Below, in pieces: positions 17,787 to 30,276 of a stretch of DNA of 64,000 bases (its first letter is position 1; the number at the start of each line of letters is the position of its first letter). Both the position numbers and the translations under genes were made by a program. The stretch lies in assembly GCA_002632265.1 (NCBI GenBank), contig NQOV01000012.1, forward strand, positions 1 through 64,000, written 5' to 3'. This stretch comes from Rhodospirillaceae bacterium MC! (GTDB lineage: Bacteria > Pseudomonadota > Alphaproteobacteria > MC1). Below the pieces are notes generated by a model. That model saw only the letters and a program-made list of their open reading frames with translations, was not told the origin of the DNA and did no database searches.

Positions 17787-17801
17787 TAAGTAAAGTGCTG
17801 T

Positions 17802-17913
17802 GAAAAAGCACTCATCCAGTGCCTTTAAGGCATACTTATGTATGGGGATATACACCCCCTATGCCTTAAAGACGCTGGCTAAGCACTTTTCCCATTCCTT
17901 AAGTAACATGAGT
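17802..17913. repeat. Palindromic element, family 1 copy B
   Basis: GTGAAAAAGCACTCATCCAGTGCCTTTAAGGCATACTTATGTATGGGGATATACACCCCCTATGCCTTAAAGACGCTGGCTAAGCACTTTTCCCATTCC. Confidence 0.9.
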
Positions 17914-18779: not shown

Positions 18780-19865
18780 ATGGCAGATCCAGAAGACGAG
18801 GGTAAAACCGAAGAACCCACCGATAAAAGATTACAAAAATTAAAAGAAGAAGGCAACACCATACAATCTCAAGAGTTCGGCAGTCTTGGGGGGATGTTAG
18901 CTACATATATAATATTTACCTTTCTAATTCCCTTTTATGTAACAAATATAGGAGAAAAGTTAAAGGGCCTAGCCTTAACATTTAACACCTTTGGGAATAT
19001 CACAACCGAAAGCCTAGTAATGTTATTCCGTATAGTTTTCTTAAATATTTTATCGTGGGTTTTTTTAGTAGGGCTAGTGCCTGTTATATTTAAATTTGCA
19101 ACAGAAATAATTATGCACGGTTGGGTATGGAATCCCAAAAAAGCATGGGATCCCAAATTATCCAACTTAAGTCCGTTAAACGGAGCTAAAAAGCTCAACG
19201 CATTTTCTCCGCCAAACTTGGTAAAAAATGGCATGAGTTTCGTGAAGTTAATAGTACTAAGTCTTGTGCTAGGTTGGTATATATACACAGAAATCCCAAA
19301 GTTCAGTGATGTAATAACCAACGGAATCATTGACTCATTATTATATTTAAACCATTTAGTAAAAGTATCTCTAGTAATTATTTTACTATTTATGCTTATT
19401 CTAGGAGTGAGCGATTGGCGTTATCGTGTTATGAAATACATGAACGATAACAAAATGAGCAAGCACGAAGTAAAAGATGAACACAAAAACACCGAAGGCG
19501 ACCCCCTAGTAAAACGTAAAATCAGATCGATTCGTATGCAACGCCACCAAGAAAGATTAGTCCAATTCTCATCACGTGCCGACGTTCTAATAACCAACCC
19601 CACCCATTTCGCCGTTGGTCTCGAATACAAACCCGATACCATGAACGCCCCCGTTGTTGTTGCCCTAGGTCAAGATCTAGTAGCCCTACGTTTAAAAACT
19701 CTAGCTAAAGAAAATGACATCCTAATAGTAGAAAATCCCCCCCTAGCACGTGCCTTATTTGCCAGCTGTGAACTAGACCAAGAAATCCCCGCCGAACACT
19801 ACCACGCCGTAGCCGAAGTGATTGGATATATTATGAAGATGAAAGGCGTCATCATCGAAAACTAA
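18780..19865 (+). CDS. flhB: Flagellar export protein FlhB
   Basis: EGKTEEPTDKRLQKLKEEGN; autocleavage NPTH in VLITNPTHFAVGLEY. Confidence 0.97.
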   Translation: MADPEDEGKTEEPTDKRLQKLKEEGNTIQSQEFGSLGGMLATYIIFTFLIPFYVTNIGEKLKGLALTFNTFGNITTESLVMLFRIVFLNILSWVFLVGLVPVIFKFATEIIMHGWVWNPKKAWDPKLSNLSPLNGAKKLNAFSPPNLVKNGMSFVKLIVLSLVLGWYIYTEIPKFSDVITNGIIDSLLYLNHLVKVSLVIILLFMLILGVSDWRYRVMKYMNDNKMSKHEVKDEHKNTEGDPLVKRKIRSIRMQRHQERLVQFSSRADVLITNPTHFAVGLEYKPDTMNAPVVVALGQDLVALRLKTLAKENDILIVENPPLARALFASCELDQEIPAEHYHAVAEVIGYIMKMKGVIIEN

Positions 19866-19974
19866 AAGGATTGGGAAAAAGCACTCATCCAGCGGTTTTA
19901 AGCCATGCTCATGTAGTGGTTATACACCACGCATGGCTTAAAACCACTGACTAAGCACTTTTTCCTAATCCTTT
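19865..19974. repeat. Palindromic element, family 1 copy C; overlaps the flhB stop codon
   Basis: 44-nt arms with 7 mismatches; bulge TCATGTA; apical GTGGTTATACACCAC. Confidence 0.93.
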
Positions 19975-20986: not shown

Positions 20987-23900
20987 TTATTTCTTAAATA
21001 TTATCTGATCGGATGTGAATGGTTGGGCGGGATTAGTGGTGTTTAGGCTGTGGACTATGGCTGTTTTAAGATTGGTGGATATAGAGGTGGTTAAGGGCGT
21101 GTTATCGAAGAGTTTGCAGGATAGTTGGTGGGTTAGATGTGCTAATACTTTAGTGGTATCGTTATCATAGATGCCAAGAGCCTCTTGATAGGTGGGGATT
21201 ATGCTTAACAGATTGTTAAGTTGGCTGTGTTCTTTTTCGCTGATATTGTTGATATCTTTTATCTTGCTAATGATTGCAACCATTTGTTCTTTTATGGGAT
21301 TGTTAAAGGGATCTGACAGGTGGCTAGGCTGATACTTATAGGGTTGATCCTTAAGATTGGTTTTGTGGATTTTACATAAGATTGGTTCTGCCCAACCGTT
21401 TTGGAAGATCATGGCAATACCTTGTTTTAAGGTTGCCAACTGTCCTAACTGTTGTTCTTTTGCTCCTGCGGAAAGGCCGGCGATTTTGCAATCTTCATTA
21501 TCTGGCAGGCGATGAATGATTTTTGTGTTAGTGTTTTTAATGGCAGAACTATCAACTTTTTCAGGCGATTGATCAACAATAATAAAGGCCTCGCCATAGG
21601 TTCGCATTTCGGCGATAGCGTCCGATATTACTTCGATTGATTTATTGGATGTATTCCCCTGTGGACGTTGATGAGTGTTGATGTTTGGTAGCAGATTATG
21701 AGCCTCTTCTAGAACGGTAATATGCTTGAGTTTTGAATTGGATTGTATGATGTCATTTTCCCATTGTTCCATGCGATATTCTTGAAGTTTAATGAATAAA
21801 AATCCTGTAATTAAAGATTTTGTTTTCAAATTACCAACGCTAGATAAATCAATGATACATTTACTATCAAATAAGATATCTTCTGTGATTTCATCTTTTA
21901 CGAAGATATCCTTATGGAATCTTTTTGTTAATTCTTTTACGTTTTCCACAAGAGATCCCCTATAGTTTTCCTTTACTTCATCGCTAAAGCTTGAATTTTT
22001 GATGATCAGATGTAGGCTATTGATGAGATCGTTAAAATCAGGATATTCTTTATCTTCATATATATATTGCGAGCGAGAAATTATCCAGCCTTTACTTTCG
22101 TAGGCATGTTCTAAGGCTGATCTTAATATGGTTGGCATGGTTTTATACATTGCCCAAGCGGAATTAAAGATCTCCACGAGCTTATCCATATGTTCGGTTA
22201 GAGTTATACTTTCAGGAAAGGAAAAGGGATTAATTCTTAAGAGATCTGTTTTTTTATGGTTTGTCCCAAATACATGCACATCCGAACCACCGCCTAAGAT
22301 GTTTTTATATTCGCCCTTTGTTGGTTCGATGATCAAATAAGGGATCGATGAACAGTTATTAAGTATGGTGTTTATGGTGTTAGATTTACCTGATCCTGTT
22401 GATCCTGTAACAAAAACATGGGATGTAAAGAGATTTTTATCTAGTGCTACGGTGTTTTTAAGATCCTTATCCATATGGTGGATTGTGCCAATTTCTACTC
22501 TATTATCTTTGTCTGGCACATTAGGGGGATTGACGCCAAAGGATTCCAAATGAAGTACGGTTAGATTATCGAAAGATTTCTCTGGAAAAGGCAAGCCGTA
22601 AGCAAGTTCATTGCTTGTTATGGGAAGACCGAATTCCATACCGTTGTTGCTTTTGAGATTGTTTAAGGATAACACTGACTTTTTAGCATATTTTAGATTC
22701 TCTTTGGATTTTTCTTGGTCTATACTAAAGCTATAGGGCGGTATATTCTCCATTTCTTCGCCTAAGAGAATCCCTTGAGTGATATCTGTACATAATTTGG
22801 CGTCTTCAATGTTTTCTGTGAAGAAATACGAGGCATATTGCCACATCCCTTTACTTAAACCTTGGTTAAGGCGGTTTATTTCTCTGTCTATGAGTTGTAA
22901 TTCGTTGGTTATGGCTTTGTTTTCTTGGGTGTAGTTTATGGTTTGTCCTTTTGTTAGATTGTTGGATAATGTTTCGGCTATACTGTTGGATACTCCTACC
23001 GTGCTACTTTCTCCGATGATTGATGTTGTTTTCTTAGCGTTTTTCTTATCGCCACTCACTAGAGATCCGAGAGTTGCTCCCAAGCTTGTACCTACAACTC
23101 CGCCCAATGCCAAACCCACAGGCCCAGCAAAACCGCCAGCCATTTCGCCCAATGTTGCCCCTACTGTTGGTAATAATGTTTGAAAGAGTGCTTTAGTTCC
23201 TGCTTGTGCTTGTTTGATTTCGTCATCTTCGCCTTTGGTTTTTTCATTGCTTGTGCTATCGGTACTTGTGTTGCTGTTGGTATCTGTGGTTGTTTTTTCG
23301 TCGCCTGTGCTTGATGATTGGTTAAGCGAACCGCTGATATTTGCTAGGCTACTACGTTCGGTATATGCTTGTTCAAAAAAGGATTTACTTTCTGCTAATC
23401 TGTTTTTATTTATGGGTTCAGCTAGTAAAAGCATGGTGAAATTATCTAGATTAATTGAATGGGCGATTTTTTCCAAGCCTTGTATGTAATTCTTTTGCTT
23501 ATTTTTTGCAGAAGGTAAAAGCTGTAATCCCGAAAATGCTTGAAAATCCTGTTCTATTTCAACCATTAATCCCGTTTTTTGCGAAGATTCGTTGCCGTTT
23601 TTAAGCCTTGTGGTTTCAATTCCGCAGAAGATCCCCCCAAGTAAGCCCTCCACGAGCTTTTCCGCTTTGGCTGAATGTTCGGAATTGTTCTTTTTTACCA
23701 ATAAATAGAAATTGGTTTTGCCGTTCGTACGCTTTAACATGATAGCAGTTGTTAAATCGTATTGATAGAATGATGTATACATCATTTTGAGCTTTTCTTG
23801 AGTATCTTCGGATTTATCATATACGAGCTTGGTTATATTAAACATTTCTATGTTGTTAGTAACGATGTTTTCAAGACTTTTTTCATCATAGGGCATGACG

Positions 23901-24046
23901 TTTAATTCTAAGTCTTCATATGCTAAAGATTTATTAAATAAGTTATTTTCAAATACTTCTTTGAGTTGTGATTCTTCTAATTCCTTTAACTTAGTTAGTG
24001 TTTGAGAATTGATGTGCTGTAGTTCTTGATGTTCGTTTTTAGTCAT
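20987..24046 (-). CDS. HerA/DUF87-type ATPase with glycine-zipper hydrophobic segment
   Basis: Walker A VFVTGSTGSGKSNTINTIL, Walker B ITVLEEAHNLLPN; GATLGEMAGGFAGPVGLALGGVVGTSLGATLGSL in the middle of the chain. Confidence 0.85.
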   Translation of the reverse strand: MTKNEHQELQHINSQTLTKLKELEESQLKEVFENNLFNKSLAYEDLELNVMPYDEKSLENIVTNNIEMFNITKLVYDKSEDTQEKLKMMYTSFYQYDLTTAIMLKRTNGKTNFYLLVKKNNSEHSAKAEKLVEGLLGGIFCGIETTRLKNGNESSQKTGLMVEIEQDFQAFSGLQLLPSAKNKQKNYIQGLEKIAHSINLDNFTMLLLAEPINKNRLAESKSFFEQAYTERSSLANISGSLNQSSSTGDEKTTTDTNSNTSTDSTSNEKTKGEDDEIKQAQAGTKALFQTLLPTVGATLGEMAGGFAGPVGLALGGVVGTSLGATLGSLVSGDKKNAKKTTSIIGESSTVGVSNSIAETLSNNLTKGQTINYTQENKAITNELQLIDREINRLNQGLSKGMWQYASYFFTENIEDAKLCTDITQGILLGEEMENIPPYSFSIDQEKSKENLKYAKKSVLSLNNLKSNNGMEFGLPITSNELAYGLPFPEKSFDNLTVLHLESFGVNPPNVPDKDNRVEIGTIHHMDKDLKNTVALDKNLFTSHVFVTGSTGSGKSNTINTILNNCSSIPYLIIEPTKGEYKNILGGGSDVHVFGTNHKKTDLLRINPFSFPESITLTEHMDKLVEIFNSAWAMYKTMPTILRSALEHAYESKGWIISRSQYIYEDKEYPDFNDLINSLHLIIKNSSFSDEVKENYRGSLVENVKELTKRFHKDIFVKDEITEDILFDSKCIIDLSSVGNLKTKSLITGFLFIKLQEYRMEQWENDIIQSNSKLKHITVLEEAHNLLPNINTHQRPQGNTSNKSIEVISDAIAEMRTYGEAFIIVDQSPEKVDSSAIKNTNTKIIHRLPDNEDCKIAGLSAGAKEQQLGQLATLKQGIAMIFQNGWAEPILCKIHKTNLKDQPYKYQPSHLSDPFNNPIKEQMVAIISKIKDINNISEKEHSQLNNLLSIIPTYQEALGIYDNDTTKVLAHLTHQLSCKLFDNTPLTTSISTNLKTAIVHSLNTTNPAQPFTSDQIIFKK

Positions 24047-24072
24047 GATTTTGATCCTGTAAATAGAGTTGG

Positions 24073-24501
24073 TTAATCTTGTGATTTTTCTTGAGTTTGT
24101 GTTGTTTTTCCTGTTGTGCCACTATCTGATAAGCTTAAGTAAATGACGCTAATAAAGACAATAAGAATTATCAAACCTGCAATAGCCATATATTTTTTTG
24201 AGAGTTTTTTCTTGGGGATTGCATTGGCGGCCACTTGAGTATCAGGCAGAAGAGCCAACAATTGGTTAATCTTTTTTTGGGAAAAATTCACTTTAATACT
24301 AGCAAAGAGATCTTTTTTATTGTTGCTGATTGTTAAGCCGTCATCCACATCAAAGAAATTATTGCCGAATGTGTTCAAACATTTACGCAAATTTTTATTA
24401 AATTCTGCTTTAGTACTTATTTCTTGCCTGATACTTGCAATAATAATACTTCGGCAATTGTTAATGTTTTTATTATTAAGTGCATTTTTAAGCTGATCCA
24501 T
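24073..24501 (-). CDS. Small protein with one C-terminal TM helix, unknown function
   Basis: 142 aa; KKYMAIAGLIILIVFISVIYLSLSD near the C-terminus; packed between the GTPase and ATPase genes. Confidence 0.75.
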   Translation of the reverse strand: MDQLKNALNNKNINNCRSIIIASIRQEISTKAEFNKNLRKCLNTFGNNFFDVDDGLTISNNKKDLFASIKVNFSQKKINQLLALLPDTQVAANAIPKKKLSKKYMAIAGLIILIVFISVIYLSLSDSGTTGKTTQTQEKSQD

Positions 24502-24516
24502 TTGTGCTATTTCCTT

Positions 24517-26937
24517 TTATGATTTTTCGTTATCGTCTAAATCTTTATCGATAAAAATATAATCTAGGGCTTGCTTGAAGGTATCTAGTTTGTCTTTATG
24601 TTTGATAAGTTCTTGATCTTTTTTTGAGATATTGATGTAATCGCTAATTTTATCGATAATATCATCAATGCTTTTATTTAGATTTTGCTTAAAGTCTTTG
24701 AAATTCTCTTCGGCTATTATCTGAATATTCTTTGCATATTGATCGCATTCACTTTCAAGATTAATAAGGATATTTTGTATTTCTTGTTCGATGTCAGTTT
24801 TCTCATAATATTCGGGCTTTTTCGGACTCCATAAGAACGCAGGCATATATTTATTCCAAACAAAATCTCGACATTCGTACCATATGTTAGATTTTGTTTT
24901 AAGTTCCACATTACGAACCTGAATAGCCTCTTTATTTACTGCGACATTGGAGAAATCGTTGGATATCTTTAAGCTTTCCTTAATTCCATATTCTTGCAAT
25001 TCTTCATCGCTAAAAAGACCAATGATAACATTTTCCGATTTTTTAATGAGATCTTCCCTTAATTCGATGTTTTTCTCTTCCACATCGGCTTCAAAGGCAC
25101 TTGTTACATTCGGAATATGATTGATGAATTTTTGTATTTCCTCTTGGATTTTCTGATTAAATGGTTCAAAATCCGCAGGCTTGATCGAGCTTTTTAAGTG
25201 AGAGAAATCTTCATTTATCAATTTTGTGAATTTATCTAACTCTTCATTTAAGTTGGCAGATATATTATTAAAGATCGGATTGATTTCTTCATTGAAATTA
25301 AGACTGTTAGATTTTCTCTTAACATCTTCAATTACTATGGAATTTTGGAGTTTTTCTAGTAATCTTTGAGTTTTAGCTTTAAATTCGGCGTATTTGTTTT
25401 CATCAAGTTCATTATCGCTATTTAGTAGGGATTCGACGTTTTTTGCTTTGGTAAAGGCGAAATCTAACTTGTGAGAAATTTCCGACAATATGGCGTTTAA
25501 TTTAATGGGTAGGGTATATTTAGAAACGTAGTTTTTAATATAATATTCCACCGCTGGCACGCCTGAATAGTATTCCACTTGTTCGGTTAGGCTTTTGCCT
25601 TGGAATTGGTTTTTGAGTTCCTTTTTATCGTGATTGCTTAAGGTAGAAAGATTTGAAAGGTTAAATAATTCATTATCGGTAATATAGCTTTTTAGTTTAT
25701 CTAAGGTATCTTTGGATTTTCTTCCCAGTTCGGATTCTCGGTTGGCAAGTAATGAATGCTCGGCACTAATGGGGAATATTTTCGGATTTCTGATATCGTA
25801 AGAATGTTCCGAAAGCTTGTTTGACCATTTTTTGATGTGATCTTCTAAAGCCTCTTGGATCTCATCAAGATTTTTATCTTCTAGGGTTTCGGCGTCGGCT
25901 TTATTTAGGATGAAAATAAATCTATCGGAAATGGTGGAATTCTTGGCATTATTTAGAACTTTACTCACTTCTTTTAGAATGATCTCGGCGTCTTCTGTAA
26001 CATCGCCATTGGTAATGTTGGCGATGAATAAAACTATAGGCTTTGTCTTTAATTTTGAATTTTGACTATTGCCATGGATATAATCAAAGGTTATTTTGCA
26101 ATGTTCTTTGTTGCTTGCGTTATTCGTGCCTGGAGTATCAATGAAAACAAAACTATTATTATGTTCATTATCATCAACCAACTTGGAAAGTTTGTGCTTA
26201 ATTGTGATTTGTTGAAGTGGCTGATTGCTTTCATTTGTCTTTTCGTTATTTTCGTTATTGTCGTTATTTTCGGAGCTTTTCTCGAAGAATTCCGCTTGAA
26301 TGTTGCCTTTATGGAGATTTTTGATGTCTTTATAGTTGAATTTATTCCATGTTTGTTGATCATCAATGGAATATTCCGTCTCGTCGATATCCGCATGGAC
26401 GATTTTTGTAATGATAGACGTACAAGCCTCATTGCCTGACGCAAGAATCTCACTGCCGATCATACTATTTATAAGCGTAGATTTGCCCGCACTCATGGGA
26501 GCAGTAACGATAATTTCTGTCGGTTCGTTGATATAATCTTGAACAGCGTTCATCTGCAGATCAAAGTTATCTTTTAAGTAAGAGGCGTTAATACTATTTA
26601 GTAAGTTTTCTATTTTGCTTTTTATGGTGTGCAATTCTAGCCCCTGATCGATCTCATATTTAGGTTGATTGGTGGTATCTTTAAATTTATTGTGATGATC
26701 TTTTATATATTGTTGGAAAATATCGCAATCTTCTTGCCTAGCCTTTAGGGTAAATGTGATTTTATCCACATTAATTTCCTGTATGATATCGGCTAATTTC
26801 GGCAACCATTCCCAAATAAAATTCGCATTGTTTTCTATTTTTGTAATAGTTAAGGTTTTATTTAAGCTTGGTGGCAATATAAACTCTGTTTTTTTTAGAT
26901 ATGTATTGTGTTTTATGACAATTTCCATTTTATACAA
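24517..26937 (-). CDS. Dynamin-like GTPase
   Basis: G1 APMSAGKSTLINSMIGSEIL, conserved T in ACTSIITKI, G3 FIDTPGTN, G4 LNKADA, long helical C-terminus. Confidence 0.87.
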   Translation of the reverse strand: MYKMEIVIKHNTYLKKTEFILPPSLNKTLTITKIENNANFIWEWLPKLADIIQEINVDKITFTLKARQEDCDIFQQYIKDHHNKFKDTTNQPKYEIDQGLELHTIKSKIENLLNSINASYLKDNFDLQMNAVQDYINEPTEIIVTAPMSAGKSTLINSMIGSEILASGNEACTSIITKIVHADIDETEYSIDDQQTWNKFNYKDIKNLHKGNIQAEFFEKSSENNDNNENNEKTNESNQPLQQITIKHKLSKLVDDNEHNNSFVFIDTPGTNNASNKEHCKITFDYIHGNSQNSKLKTKPIVLFIANITNGDVTEDAEIILKEVSKVLNNAKNSTISDRFIFILNKADAETLEDKNLDEIQEALEDHIKKWSNKLSEHSYDIRNPKIFPISAEHSLLANRESELGRKSKDTLDKLKSYITDNELFNLSNLSTLSNHDKKELKNQFQGKSLTEQVEYYSGVPAVEYYIKNYVSKYTLPIKLNAILSEISHKLDFAFTKAKNVESLLNSDNELDENKYAEFKAKTQRLLEKLQNSIVIEDVKRKSNSLNFNEEINPIFNNISANLNEELDKFTKLINEDFSHLKSSIKPADFEPFNQKIQEEIQKFINHIPNVTSAFEADVEEKNIELREDLIKKSENVIIGLFSDEELQEYGIKESLKISNDFSNVAVNKEAIQVRNVELKTKSNIWYECRDFVWNKYMPAFLWSPKKPEYYEKTDIEQEIQNILINLESECDQYAKNIQIIAEENFKDFKQNLNKSIDDIIDKISDYINISKKDQELIKHKDKLDTFKQALDYIFIDKDLDDNEKS

Positions 26938-27210: not shown

Positions 27211-29388
27211 ATGCACATGAAAAAAACATTATTATATTCTCTAGTTGGATTGTCATTGTCTTCTACATCCTTTATTGCTCAAGCATATGGGGCTTGTTCA
27301 TACACAGCTAAAGGAGCGGATATTATAACAAAAGGTACATCAGCATGTATTGACGCAGGAACATTAGGGCAAGATATCACTATCGATACACCTATCACAA
27401 CCATTACTTTAAATGATAAAAATAACGTGCTAAGATTACATAATGACTTCTCGGCAGATATTGACGGTAAAAAGGGTAGTGATGAAATTGTCTTACAAGA
27501 ACTTCATAGCCCTTTACCGTCTGATCCATGGTTGGGAGCAATCACAACCGAAACAATAAGCGGAACACATAAAATCACAGGTGCAATCAAAGGTATCGAA
27601 AGTATAGAAACCATAGACGGTACATGGGAATTTACTAAAGAAGTTCATTTAGGAGCGGATGTGCCATCAATTACAGAACTGGCCGCAAGTAATGGAAGTC
27701 AAACACCGAATTTAGAATCTGTAAAACCAGCTACCGCAAGCTATTTCCCTACACTTGCCCAATTATCGAGTGCCACATTGATTTTCGATAAAAAGTTATA
27801 TTTAGGCTTGACCCTACAATCGCCAAAACCGACGGACGCCACTCAAAACCAACCGATAAATGCTCATATTACCGCTGGTCATGTGCAACTTAAAGGCGGT
27901 TTTCAACTTGAGATATTCCAAGGTTTACAAGCCTTACCGAAAAAAAATTATTCCACCACTTTAATCGATAGTGCCGATATTACCGACGGTAACGGCAGTA
28001 AGGATATTACAGACACCGCAGGGAACAAATTAACCCCAGGTACGCCAAATGTTTGGGATGATGGTAACTGGCACATTCAAGAAACCCTTGATGATAAAGG
28101 TTTACACATTAAAGTAGCCGCTGGTAATAATCCCAATTTCTCTGCCATTCCTGACGCCACATCTACCACCACAGCCACAGCCACAGGTACAGGTACAGAC
28201 GCAGGCTCAACCACAACAGACGGCGATTCAAGTGGCGGTGGTGATGCTACCTTAAACTATAATCCGAAAGAATTAAAGTATAATGATGATATAACCTTTG
28301 CCATAAGTAACCAAGCGTCCAAATATCGTACAGATACCATAGTGGCTCACGATTCTAAATTCATTGATTTCTCCGTAGCAAGGGATTCCGCAGGGACTTA
28401 CCAGAATTTATCTTTAATTGAAGCTCATTTAAATATCTCAAGTGCTTTCACCCAAGACGCTCCAGTCTTACACAATACCGATGAACGTAATATGATTAAC
28501 TTACAAGTGGGTTATTATCATGGTTCTGGTCAAACAGGAAAAGAGGGAGCTGATAGTCAATCATATATGGGATCAGATACAGAATCCGACATGGAATCAG
28601 ATATGGAATCCGATACAGACTCAAACTCAACCGCAGATTTTAAAAGATTTGTCAACGCCTATTCCATAGGTAGTGCCGTTAAATTCTACAATCCTTTTAA
28701 ACGCAAAAATGCAGGATTCCTAAGAGATTTATGGTTCAGTACAGGCTTTGATTTGGGCTTTGCTCAACAATATGACATCTCAAGAATGAATGTCGATTGG
28801 GACCAAACAACTCTAGAGGGTAAAGAAAACGATTTCTTCTTAACCAACACATCATTAATAGGGATAGATTTATACGGTCATTTCAAATACAAAAACGGTG
28901 TCAAGCTAGTAGTTAGCCCATATGTGGGACTAGGGTTAAACGCCTATAGATTCGGAATGTATACAGAAGTCGCTCGTAATCCATTAATTATCGATTCCAC
29001 ATATCGCTTTAATGCTTACGGCATTTTTGGCGTTCATGCAAAAACCATATACAGATTTAAGAATAATCAAGTGGTAGGCATAGGAGCTACAATTGAAACA
29101 AACTATCGCTTTAGAAATACCGCTAGCACAGATAACACAGACATAACCGAAAAAACCGTCAGCACCGATAAAGACGGAAAAACTAGCACTTTCACTCGTA
29201 GATTCTCCTACAAACATTGGAAATCTTCCGACATAATAGATAATGTATACAAAAAGTATCCCATAACTTTCGGAATTGACGCAACCTACCAACCAATCCC
29301 AAACCTTGCCTTATTCACCAAAGCCAACTACTCAACCGCCGAACTATATAACTATAATGTAGAAATTGGAGCAAAATTCAACTTCTAA
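27211..29388 (+). CDS. Autotransporter-like outer membrane protein
   Basis: N-terminal signal peptide, Thr/Ser-rich passenger-like region, C-terminal beta-barrel-like strands ending NYNVEIGAKFNF. Confidence 0.75.
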   Translation: MHMKKTLLYSLVGLSLSSTSFIAQAYGACSYTAKGADIITKGTSACIDAGTLGQDITIDTPITTITLNDKNNVLRLHNDFSADIDGKKGSDEIVLQELHSPLPSDPWLGAITTETISGTHKITGAIKGIESIETIDGTWEFTKEVHLGADVPSITELAASNGSQTPNLESVKPATASYFPTLAQLSSATLIFDKKLYLGLTLQSPKPTDATQNQPINAHITAGHVQLKGGFQLEIFQGLQALPKKNYSTTLIDSADITDGNGSKDITDTAGNKLTPGTPNVWDDGNWHIQETLDDKGLHIKVAAGNNPNFSAIPDATSTTTATATGTGTDAGSTTTDGDSSGGGDATLNYNPKELKYNDDITFAISNQASKYRTDTIVAHDSKFIDFSVARDSAGTYQNLSLIEAHLNISSAFTQDAPVLHNTDERNMINLQVGYYHGSGQTGKEGADSQSYMGSDTESDMESDMESDTDSNSTADFKRFVNAYSIGSAVKFYNPFKRKNAGFLRDLWFSTGFDLGFAQQYDISRMNVDWDQTTLEGKENDFFLTNTSLIGIDLYGHFKYKNGVKLVVSPYVGLGLNAYRFGMYTEVARNPLIIDSTYRFNAYGIFGVHAKTIYRFKNNQVVGIGATIETNYRFRNTASTDNTDITEKTVSTDKDGKTSTFTRRFSYKHWKSSDIIDNVYKKYPITFGIDATYQPIPNLALFTKANYSTAELYNYNVEIGAKFNF

Positions 29389-29395
29389 CAAGCCA

Positions 29396-29945
29396 AGGAT
29401 TGGGAGAAATGAGCTAATATGCACCTTACCTTAGGGCTTATGTAGACGTGAGTACACGTCGCCCTAAGTTAAGGCCCATCTTATCTCATTTCTCCCAATC
29501 CTGCGGATCGTGATAAATAAGCTAATCTACAACCTTAACTTAGGGCTTATGTAGACGTGAGTACACGTCGCCCTAAGTTAAGGCCCATCTTAGCTCATTT
29601 CTCCCAATCCTGCGGATCGTGATAAATAAGCTAATCTACAACCTTACCTTAGGGCTTATGTAGACGTGAGTACACGTCGCCCTAAGTTAAGGCCCATCTT
29701 AGCTCATTTCTCCCAATCCTGCGGATCGTGATAAATGGGTTAATATGCACCTTAACGTAAGGCTTATGTAGACGTGAGTACACGTCGCCCTAAGTTAAGA
29801 TACATCTTATCCCATTTCTCCCAATCCTTGGGCTTGCGGTGGTGGATGATTGGGCTAATCTGTACCTTAACTTAGAATTTATGTAGACGTGAGTACACGT
29901 CGCCCTAAGTTAAGGCATATCTTACGATCTTTCTCTCAATCCTGC
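29396..29945. repeat. Second tandem array of five ~109-bp family 2 palindromes
   Basis: Five repeats of the CTTATGTAGACGTGAGTACACGTCGCCCTAAGTTAAG core; first unit has outer stem AGGATTGGGAGAAATGAG pairing with CTCATTTCTCCCAATCCT. Confidence 0.95.
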
Positions 29946-30276
29946 GGATTGCGGGGGAAGATTGGTATTGTATATTATATCTTCTCACACAAATAGAAAC
30001 GCTTTTTATATATATAGTTTCTATTGTTTATTGTTTATTGTTTATTGTTTGCTGGCCGAAATTAGGTATAATATAAGTATATATATTGCTAGTTTAGATA
30101 TATATAAGGTAACTGTTTCATTAAACCATATTTAAAGTATTATTAAATATACTCATTATATACTAATATTAGGCCGTAAATTATAATAGGCAGTAGAATA
30201 TAAAATAATCATTTGTATTTATGATGTTCTCTGATAGTTATGTGATAACAGTATGCAGTTTTTATATTCTTGTATA

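Follow-up and report, generated by a model that had tools for sequence, protein, structure and literature searches.

ERIC- and NEMIS-type repeats are intergenic imperfect palindromes of about 110-130 bp that are co-transcribed with genes, and Rickettsia palindromic elements (RPEs), which like the repeat described below are dispersed palindromes of Alphaproteobacteria, sit in frame within genes. The RPE tag is CGTC, and the tags of REP and REPIN sequences are GTAG or CGTC (PMC3733652). REP and REPIN sequences are likewise high-copy palindromes outside coding sequence, with compensated hairpin stems and a constant tetranucleotide; REPINs form tandem arrays too (PMC3116915), and in E. coli 260 of 496 REPs are found no more than 15 nt from a stop codon (figure cited in PMC12306157). 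In attC sites, it is the antisense strand, relative to the gene, that folds and is used, and in chromosomal integrons this strand lies on the leading-strand template (PMC11023631).

The window, i.e., the whole 64,000-nt stretch of DNA that was analysed, contains a repeat with similarities to each of these systems (Table 1). The copy adjoining flhB is a 110-nt imperfect palindrome with arms (19865-19908 and 19931-19974) that are 84% complementary. About 75 hairpin-forming copies of the repeat family are present in the genome (G000; 2.05 Mb, 19 contigs), which the relatives of its carbamoyl-phosphate synthase place no finer than as a deep alphaproteobacterium. Approximately 50 of the copies are full family 1 elements, and 73 copies, including family 2 and divergent relatives, were fetched in total. 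We refer to the strand that pairs by G-U and carries GTGCTTAG at its 5' side as W (the minus strand in the window), and to the opposite strand as C.

Table 1. Repeat copies and adjoining features in the window.
Feature	Position	Strand	Remarks
flhB (PF01312)	18780..19865	+	TAA stop at 19863-19865 shares its last base with the first base of the element
Family 1 element adjoining flhB	19865..19974	-	W (better folding) on the minus strand; flhB sense on the plus strand
GCAC, left arm	19881..19884	+	First half of the GCAC...GCAC direct repeat
GCAC, right arm	19955..19958	+	Second half of the GCAC...GCAC direct repeat
CTCATGTA	19908..19915	+	Variant of CTTATGTA (TACATAAG on W), the conserved one-sided bulge at the apex
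Family 1 copy	113..224	-	
Family 1 copy	17792..17901	-	5 nt past the stop of a + strand phosphoribosyltransferase gene; 36 nt before fliR (+)
Family 1 copy	39641..39753	-	Overlaps the stop of an ABC-ATPase gene on the + strand (37962-39641)
Family 1 copy, divergent	44449..44559	-	No adjoining + strand stop
Family 2 tandem array	7296..7980	-	Unit about 112 nt; cores at 7323, 7435, 7546, 7658 and 7770; core layout GCAC-N12-CTTATGTAG...GTACA.GTCGC-N12'-GCAC
Family 2 tandem array	29395..29985	-	Unit about 109 nt; begins 6 nt past the stop of a + strand gene, 27211-29388
Family 2 copy	37626..37736	-	1 nt past the stop of a + strand GCS2 gene, 36236-37624

The repeat differs from REP and REPIN sequences in several respects. 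Where REP/REPIN-RAYT systems have a palindrome of 20-40 nt tagged with GTAG or CGTC at a single end, it has the tags GCAC, GCAC and CTTATGTA within a 60-110 nt hairpin, and the 110-nt form is a single long hairpin that bulges on one side. Its orientation is fixed relative to both genes and replication skew, and it is not accompanied by a Y1/RAYT gene: PF01797 (Y1, IS200/IS605-type/RAYT) is absent from G000 and from the three genomes of a second lineage (G198, G398 and G399, described below), with a positive E. coli control. These genomes are 78-96% complete. The elements differ from RPEs in starting at stop codons and in lacking the CGTC tag. They resemble ERIC- and NEMIS-type repeats in size, imperfect palindromy and co-transcription, a likeness of general description. 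To our knowledge, neither the GCAC/CTTATGTA tags nor a replication-linked orientation is a feature of ERIC or NEMIS.

The closest working analogue is attC. Like an attC site, the element is an imperfect palindrome placed right after a stop codon (at 37 of the 56 loci that result when arrays are collapsed, its C strand begins no more than 6 nt from where a C-strand gene has its stop codon), and the strand antisense to that gene, W, is the more stable one. Unlike attC sites, however, none of the 73 elements contains the boxes RYYYAAC ... GTTRRRY both in order, matches to the integron integrase model TIGR02249 were Xer-like and below the cut-off in all three genomes searched, and the elements adjoin dispersed housekeeping genes instead of cassettes. 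In G198, one element copy lies approximately 140 bp from a gene encoding an Xer-type tyrosine recombinase (G198:C2:691081-691828), which may be a coincidence or possibly a lead to the mobilising enzyme.

Several other features of the window were recorded. A gene on the minus strand (4404-7367) encodes a 987-aa flagellar hook-type protein of the FlgE/F/G family; its longest open reading frame begins within a family 2 array, and the actual start probably lies downstream of 7296. Three consecutive genes of the nitroreductase family (PF00881; 8051-8707, 8787-9443 and 9453-10136) are tandem duplicates with 60-79% DNA identity over shared stretches. A row of minus-strand genes (20987-26937) encodes a HerA-like ATPase of 1019 aa (PF01935), a protein of 142 aa and a dynamin-like protein of 806 aa (PF00350); PADLOC gives HerA/mad8-type matches there, and the genes are possibly an undescribed defence or membrane operon. 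A single 733-aa protein (45715-47916, minus strand) fuses PTS EIIC, EIIB, EIIA and HPr domains.

Direction of arm mismatches and folding of the two strands

An earlier note on this DNA had proposed, from a hand count of about 20 mismatches against about 3, that the arm mismatches are of a kind that wobbles in the minus strand and that the palindromes act as minus-strand RNA. We aligned the left arm of each copy with the reverse complement of its own right arm. The four copies at 113, 17792, 19865 and 39641 gave 22 G-U versus 4 A-C mismatches on W, close to the hand count, and the genome-wide tally was far from balanced, with 344 G-U versus 72 A-C mismatches among the 73 copies, although these cells are not independent, most of the excess being inherited at a few fixed positions. 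G-U mismatches were in excess in 66 copies, with the reverse in 5, and in 24 of 25 clusters formed at 25% divergence. To avoid circularity from the structured model, we also oriented copies by the loop motif alone, which yielded 234 G-U versus 47 A-C mismatches, and a sequence-only model gave the same copy orientation as the structured model; the orientation of the copies is therefore not derived from pairing.

Folding of both strands agreed with the tally. W was more stable than C in 67 of the 73 copies, and the consensus of a 29-copy alignment folded at -29.7 kcal/mol for W and -4.8 kcal/mol for C. W was again more stable with DNA parameters (mean -30.9 versus -24.0 for C), and a G-T mismatch is tolerated in DNA as well. 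Had selection acted to keep a hairpin of C, G-U pairs would be expected on that strand, and a two-strand cruciform would give no direction, as the earlier note had reasoned for a DNA-only cruciform. The observed direction thus indicates that pairing on W matters, unless pairing on C is selected against. Strand-asymmetric mutation was considered and rejected as a source of the bias, since an excess of C-to-T changes on C (the coding, G-rich strand) would place the G-U pairs on C, whereas they are seen on W.

Conserved core and second lineage

GCAC is present in the same sense in both arms and hence forms a direct repeat. When the two copies oppose each other in a hairpin, they give C.A and A.C on C but U.G and G.U on W, so this repeat by itself produces two of the recurrent wobbles on W. 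The core GCAC/GTGC wobbles described previously are thus present, and this part of the signature is a direct repeat. The first unit of family 2, for which the same pair had been claimed, does contain GCAC/GCAC (the 7296 unit) and has zero A-C mismatches. The GCAC repeat is kept in divergent subfamilies in which the surrounding stems have been swapped with compensation, and the conserved elements as a whole are GCAC in both arms and the one-sided bulge CTTATGTA with GTACAC.nCGC opposite. Stem covariation is strong: both sides have changed in 23 of 48 pairs, and none of 500 shuffles reached the observed values.

A weak match to the structured model was found in G198, a genome from another alphaproteobacterial order. 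G198, G398 and G399, which belong to one genus, carry GCAC-N12-CTTATGTAC...GTACAC.nGCGC-N12'-GCAC many times over, enclosed by longer outer stems, with the 12-nt spacing held in 22 of 23 copies; family 2 of the window has this same 12-nt GCAC-N12 layout. The stems differ between the two orders, and GCAC-N12-CTTATGTA...GTACAC...GCAC is common to both. W is the more stable strand in all 23 copies of the second lineage (mean -72.1 versus -58.7), in which G-U mismatches number 41 and A-C mismatches 3 when the GTGC motif and apical loop are set aside. Together, the mismatch asymmetry, its presence in a second lineage and the compensatory changes point to W folding as a single strand.

The distribution of the repeat is patchy. 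Among 387 genomes of the class, the layout was clearly above control in only two, G000 (48 versus 1) and G198 (14 versus 3), as expected of something that spreads. The exact DNA pattern of family 1 had no match in 85,488 genomes or in viral contigs, the core pattern of the second lineage had none in viral contigs, and BLASTN searches with the 19865 copy against plasmids and with the 7296 unit against phages returned zero matches. Weak R2 matches in G094 and G058 proved to be unrelated palindromes.

Gene ends and replication-like skew

The proximity to stop codons described above would be expected by chance at approximately 2.4% of intergenic positions (p about 1e-46, using a rough null). The adjoining genes are full-length and ordinary (rpoB, rpsB, recG, lon, ftsK, purH, mnmE and the transketolase gene), and copies are present between the operon partners rpoB-rpoC, rpsB-tsf, pyrH-frr (pyrH being assigned only as an amino-acid-kinase family member adjoining frr), pta-ackA and transaldolase-transketolase. 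Because the abutting genes are on C, the expected transcript, the messenger, carries C. The mirror arrangement was seen once (G000:C11:47297-47410), in a copy with its loop inverted relative to its arms, so that by arm polarity this copy fits the gene-end rule too.

The orientation of W is unchanged across long stretches of contig and agrees with the local GC skew in 35 of 38 regions (p=7e-8), in that W is the strand richer in C. Skew was measured with gene strand controlled, using third codon positions of plus- and minus-strand genes as well as intergenic bases. In G198, 14 of 14 copies were found on one strand, while about one third of the local coding sequence is on the other. Orientation that follows skew is a property linked to DNA replication, which RNA function alone does not predict. 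The sense strand, C, is probably the lagging-strand template. Essential genes tend to sit on the leading strand, and the leading-strand bias of the elements may partly reflect the essential genes that they accompany.

Some copies are incomplete. Twenty-four retain just the stop-codon half of the element and one retains just the other half, although the two halves are equally informative (78.8 and 77.7 bits). Mini-hairpins in G000 (for example C2:137441, C12:4195 and C11:35479) are still located at stop codons and resemble elements that have lost their interior between TAAGC/AAGC repeats.

A proposed strand-specific hairpin element and rival explanations

These data identify a new repeat family, of a known kind, with unusual strand, site and orientation rules. 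The explanation that we prefer, if tentatively, is a strand-specific hairpin element that operates as single-stranded DNA in a manner similar to attC sites or REPINs but is a member of neither group. Each palindrome would be a copy of a small, non-autonomous repeat that is recognised as a one-strand (W) hairpin, most likely as ssDNA or as the W arm of a cruciform, and a putative trans-acting enzyme would use this hairpin when the element is copied or moved; we infer movement from the copy number and the patchy distribution. G-T pairs would keep the W hairpin intact, and because the same positions are A-C on the other strand, the sense strand would carry a weaker, bubbled hairpin. GCAC and the one-sided bulge CTTATGTA, with GTACAC.nCGC opposite, would act as recognition tags, and the stems could vary freely provided that pairing holds; copies dock at stop codons. 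Several observations argue against this explanation: the searches found no Y1 transposase, no integron integrase above the cut-off and no enzyme for the element; by the usual meaning of GC skew W lies on the leading-strand template, which is less often single-stranded than the other; and insertion of ssDNA alone does not explain such precise docking at stop codons. A more specific proposal, which we consider doubtful, is that a hitherto undescribed strand-specific hairpin element of at least two alphaproteobacterial orders is copied onto gene ends from the stop codon onward, with single-stranded W (ssDNA or RNA) as the template, and that the enzyme responsible is related neither to RAYTs nor to integron integrases nor to any known reverse transcriptase.

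Alternatively, W could function as RNA, either antisense to the 3' ends of genes, as a trans-acting sRNA or as a template for retro-copying primed at the stop codon, with selection keeping the RNA folded via G-U wobbles. Tolerance of G-U is the classic sign of an RNA-reading strand, W RNA folds better by 12 kcal/mol on average, and read-through would transcribe W at 22 of the 63 copies counted, in which the gene upstream of W is also on W (19 with the downstream gene opposite and 3 with it on the same strand). The truncated copies, moreover, have the polarity of copying from the 3' end of W. That polarity was rejected as proof of target-primed copying, since purifying selection to preserve the end of the gene would produce it as well. 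Most flanking genes, including those of essential operons, are read from C; the 5' end of W shows no conserved upstream flank and no promoter motif or promoter-like excess; Rfam 15 gave no match at gathering score and nothing meaningful; reverse transcriptase (PF00078) is absent in G000; and the orientation tracks replication skew. We therefore regard an RNA form of W as unlikely, and the earlier proposal of minus-strand RNA is supported for folding of the one strand, W, but not for its RNA form. The orientation of the genes, the lack of a W promoter and the replication-like orientation favour W as ssDNA over W as RNA.

It is also conceivable, if improbable, that folding of W is not needed at all and that stable hairpins on C are harmful, such that A-C mismatches survive and G-U pairs on C are lost, C being the messenger right behind the stop codon and the lagging-strand template. 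C is indeed the messenger strand at the 37 stop-proximal loci and the G-rich strand by skew, and elements are present inside rpoBC, rpsB-tsf and pyrH-frr, where a strong hairpin would be costly. Counter-selection on C, however, leaves the compensatory pairing unexplained, as it does the conservation of GCAC and CTTATGTA as sequences across two orders, and the C hairpins of tandem (operon) sites did not prove weaker than those of convergent gene ends (p=0.34; p=0.81 for the asymmetry).

A founder effect, in which an ancestor carried the GCAC direct repeat and a few transitions that its descendants inherited, with no ongoing strand selection, is distinctly improbable. In its favour, four fixed column pairs hold 92 of the 161 G-U cells in the 29-copy alignment. 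Parsimony assigned 107 changes from Watson-Crick to G-U and 77 from Watson-Crick to A-C, which are near balance on terminal branches (64 versus 55), and when recurrent positions are excluded the excess is weak, at 14 G-U versus 5 A-C clusters (p=0.036). Against a founder effect, the same direction recurs in different subfamilies and in the second order, but at other positions, the fixed wobbles last while neighbouring pairs are replaced with compensation, and the older branches give 43:22, a ratio whose gap from the terminal branches is not significant (p=0.12). Considering positions with at least four cells, 23 arm positions lean toward G-U and 3 toward A-C, neighbouring positions not being fully independent.

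A terminator or bidirectional terminator at gene ends, which the location of the hairpin right behind stop codons might suggest, is highly improbable given that a U-tract after the hairpin is absent on both strands (T fraction 0.36 and 0.33), that copies lie within rpoB-rpoC, rpsB-tsf, pyrH-frr and pta-ackA, and that with a terminator acting on C the G-U pairs would be expected on that strand, contrary to the observed direction.

The direction of mismatches can show which strand of a repeat works in single-stranded form, with the caution that a G-U bias should not be equated with RNA function. Here, it picks the strand opposite the messenger; the repeat itself docks at stop codons of essential genes, which it leaves intact, and holds a single orientation relative to the replication-like skew. 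The repeat thus offers a testable system in which to study how a hairpin repeat selects its strand and site independently of RAYTs and integrons.
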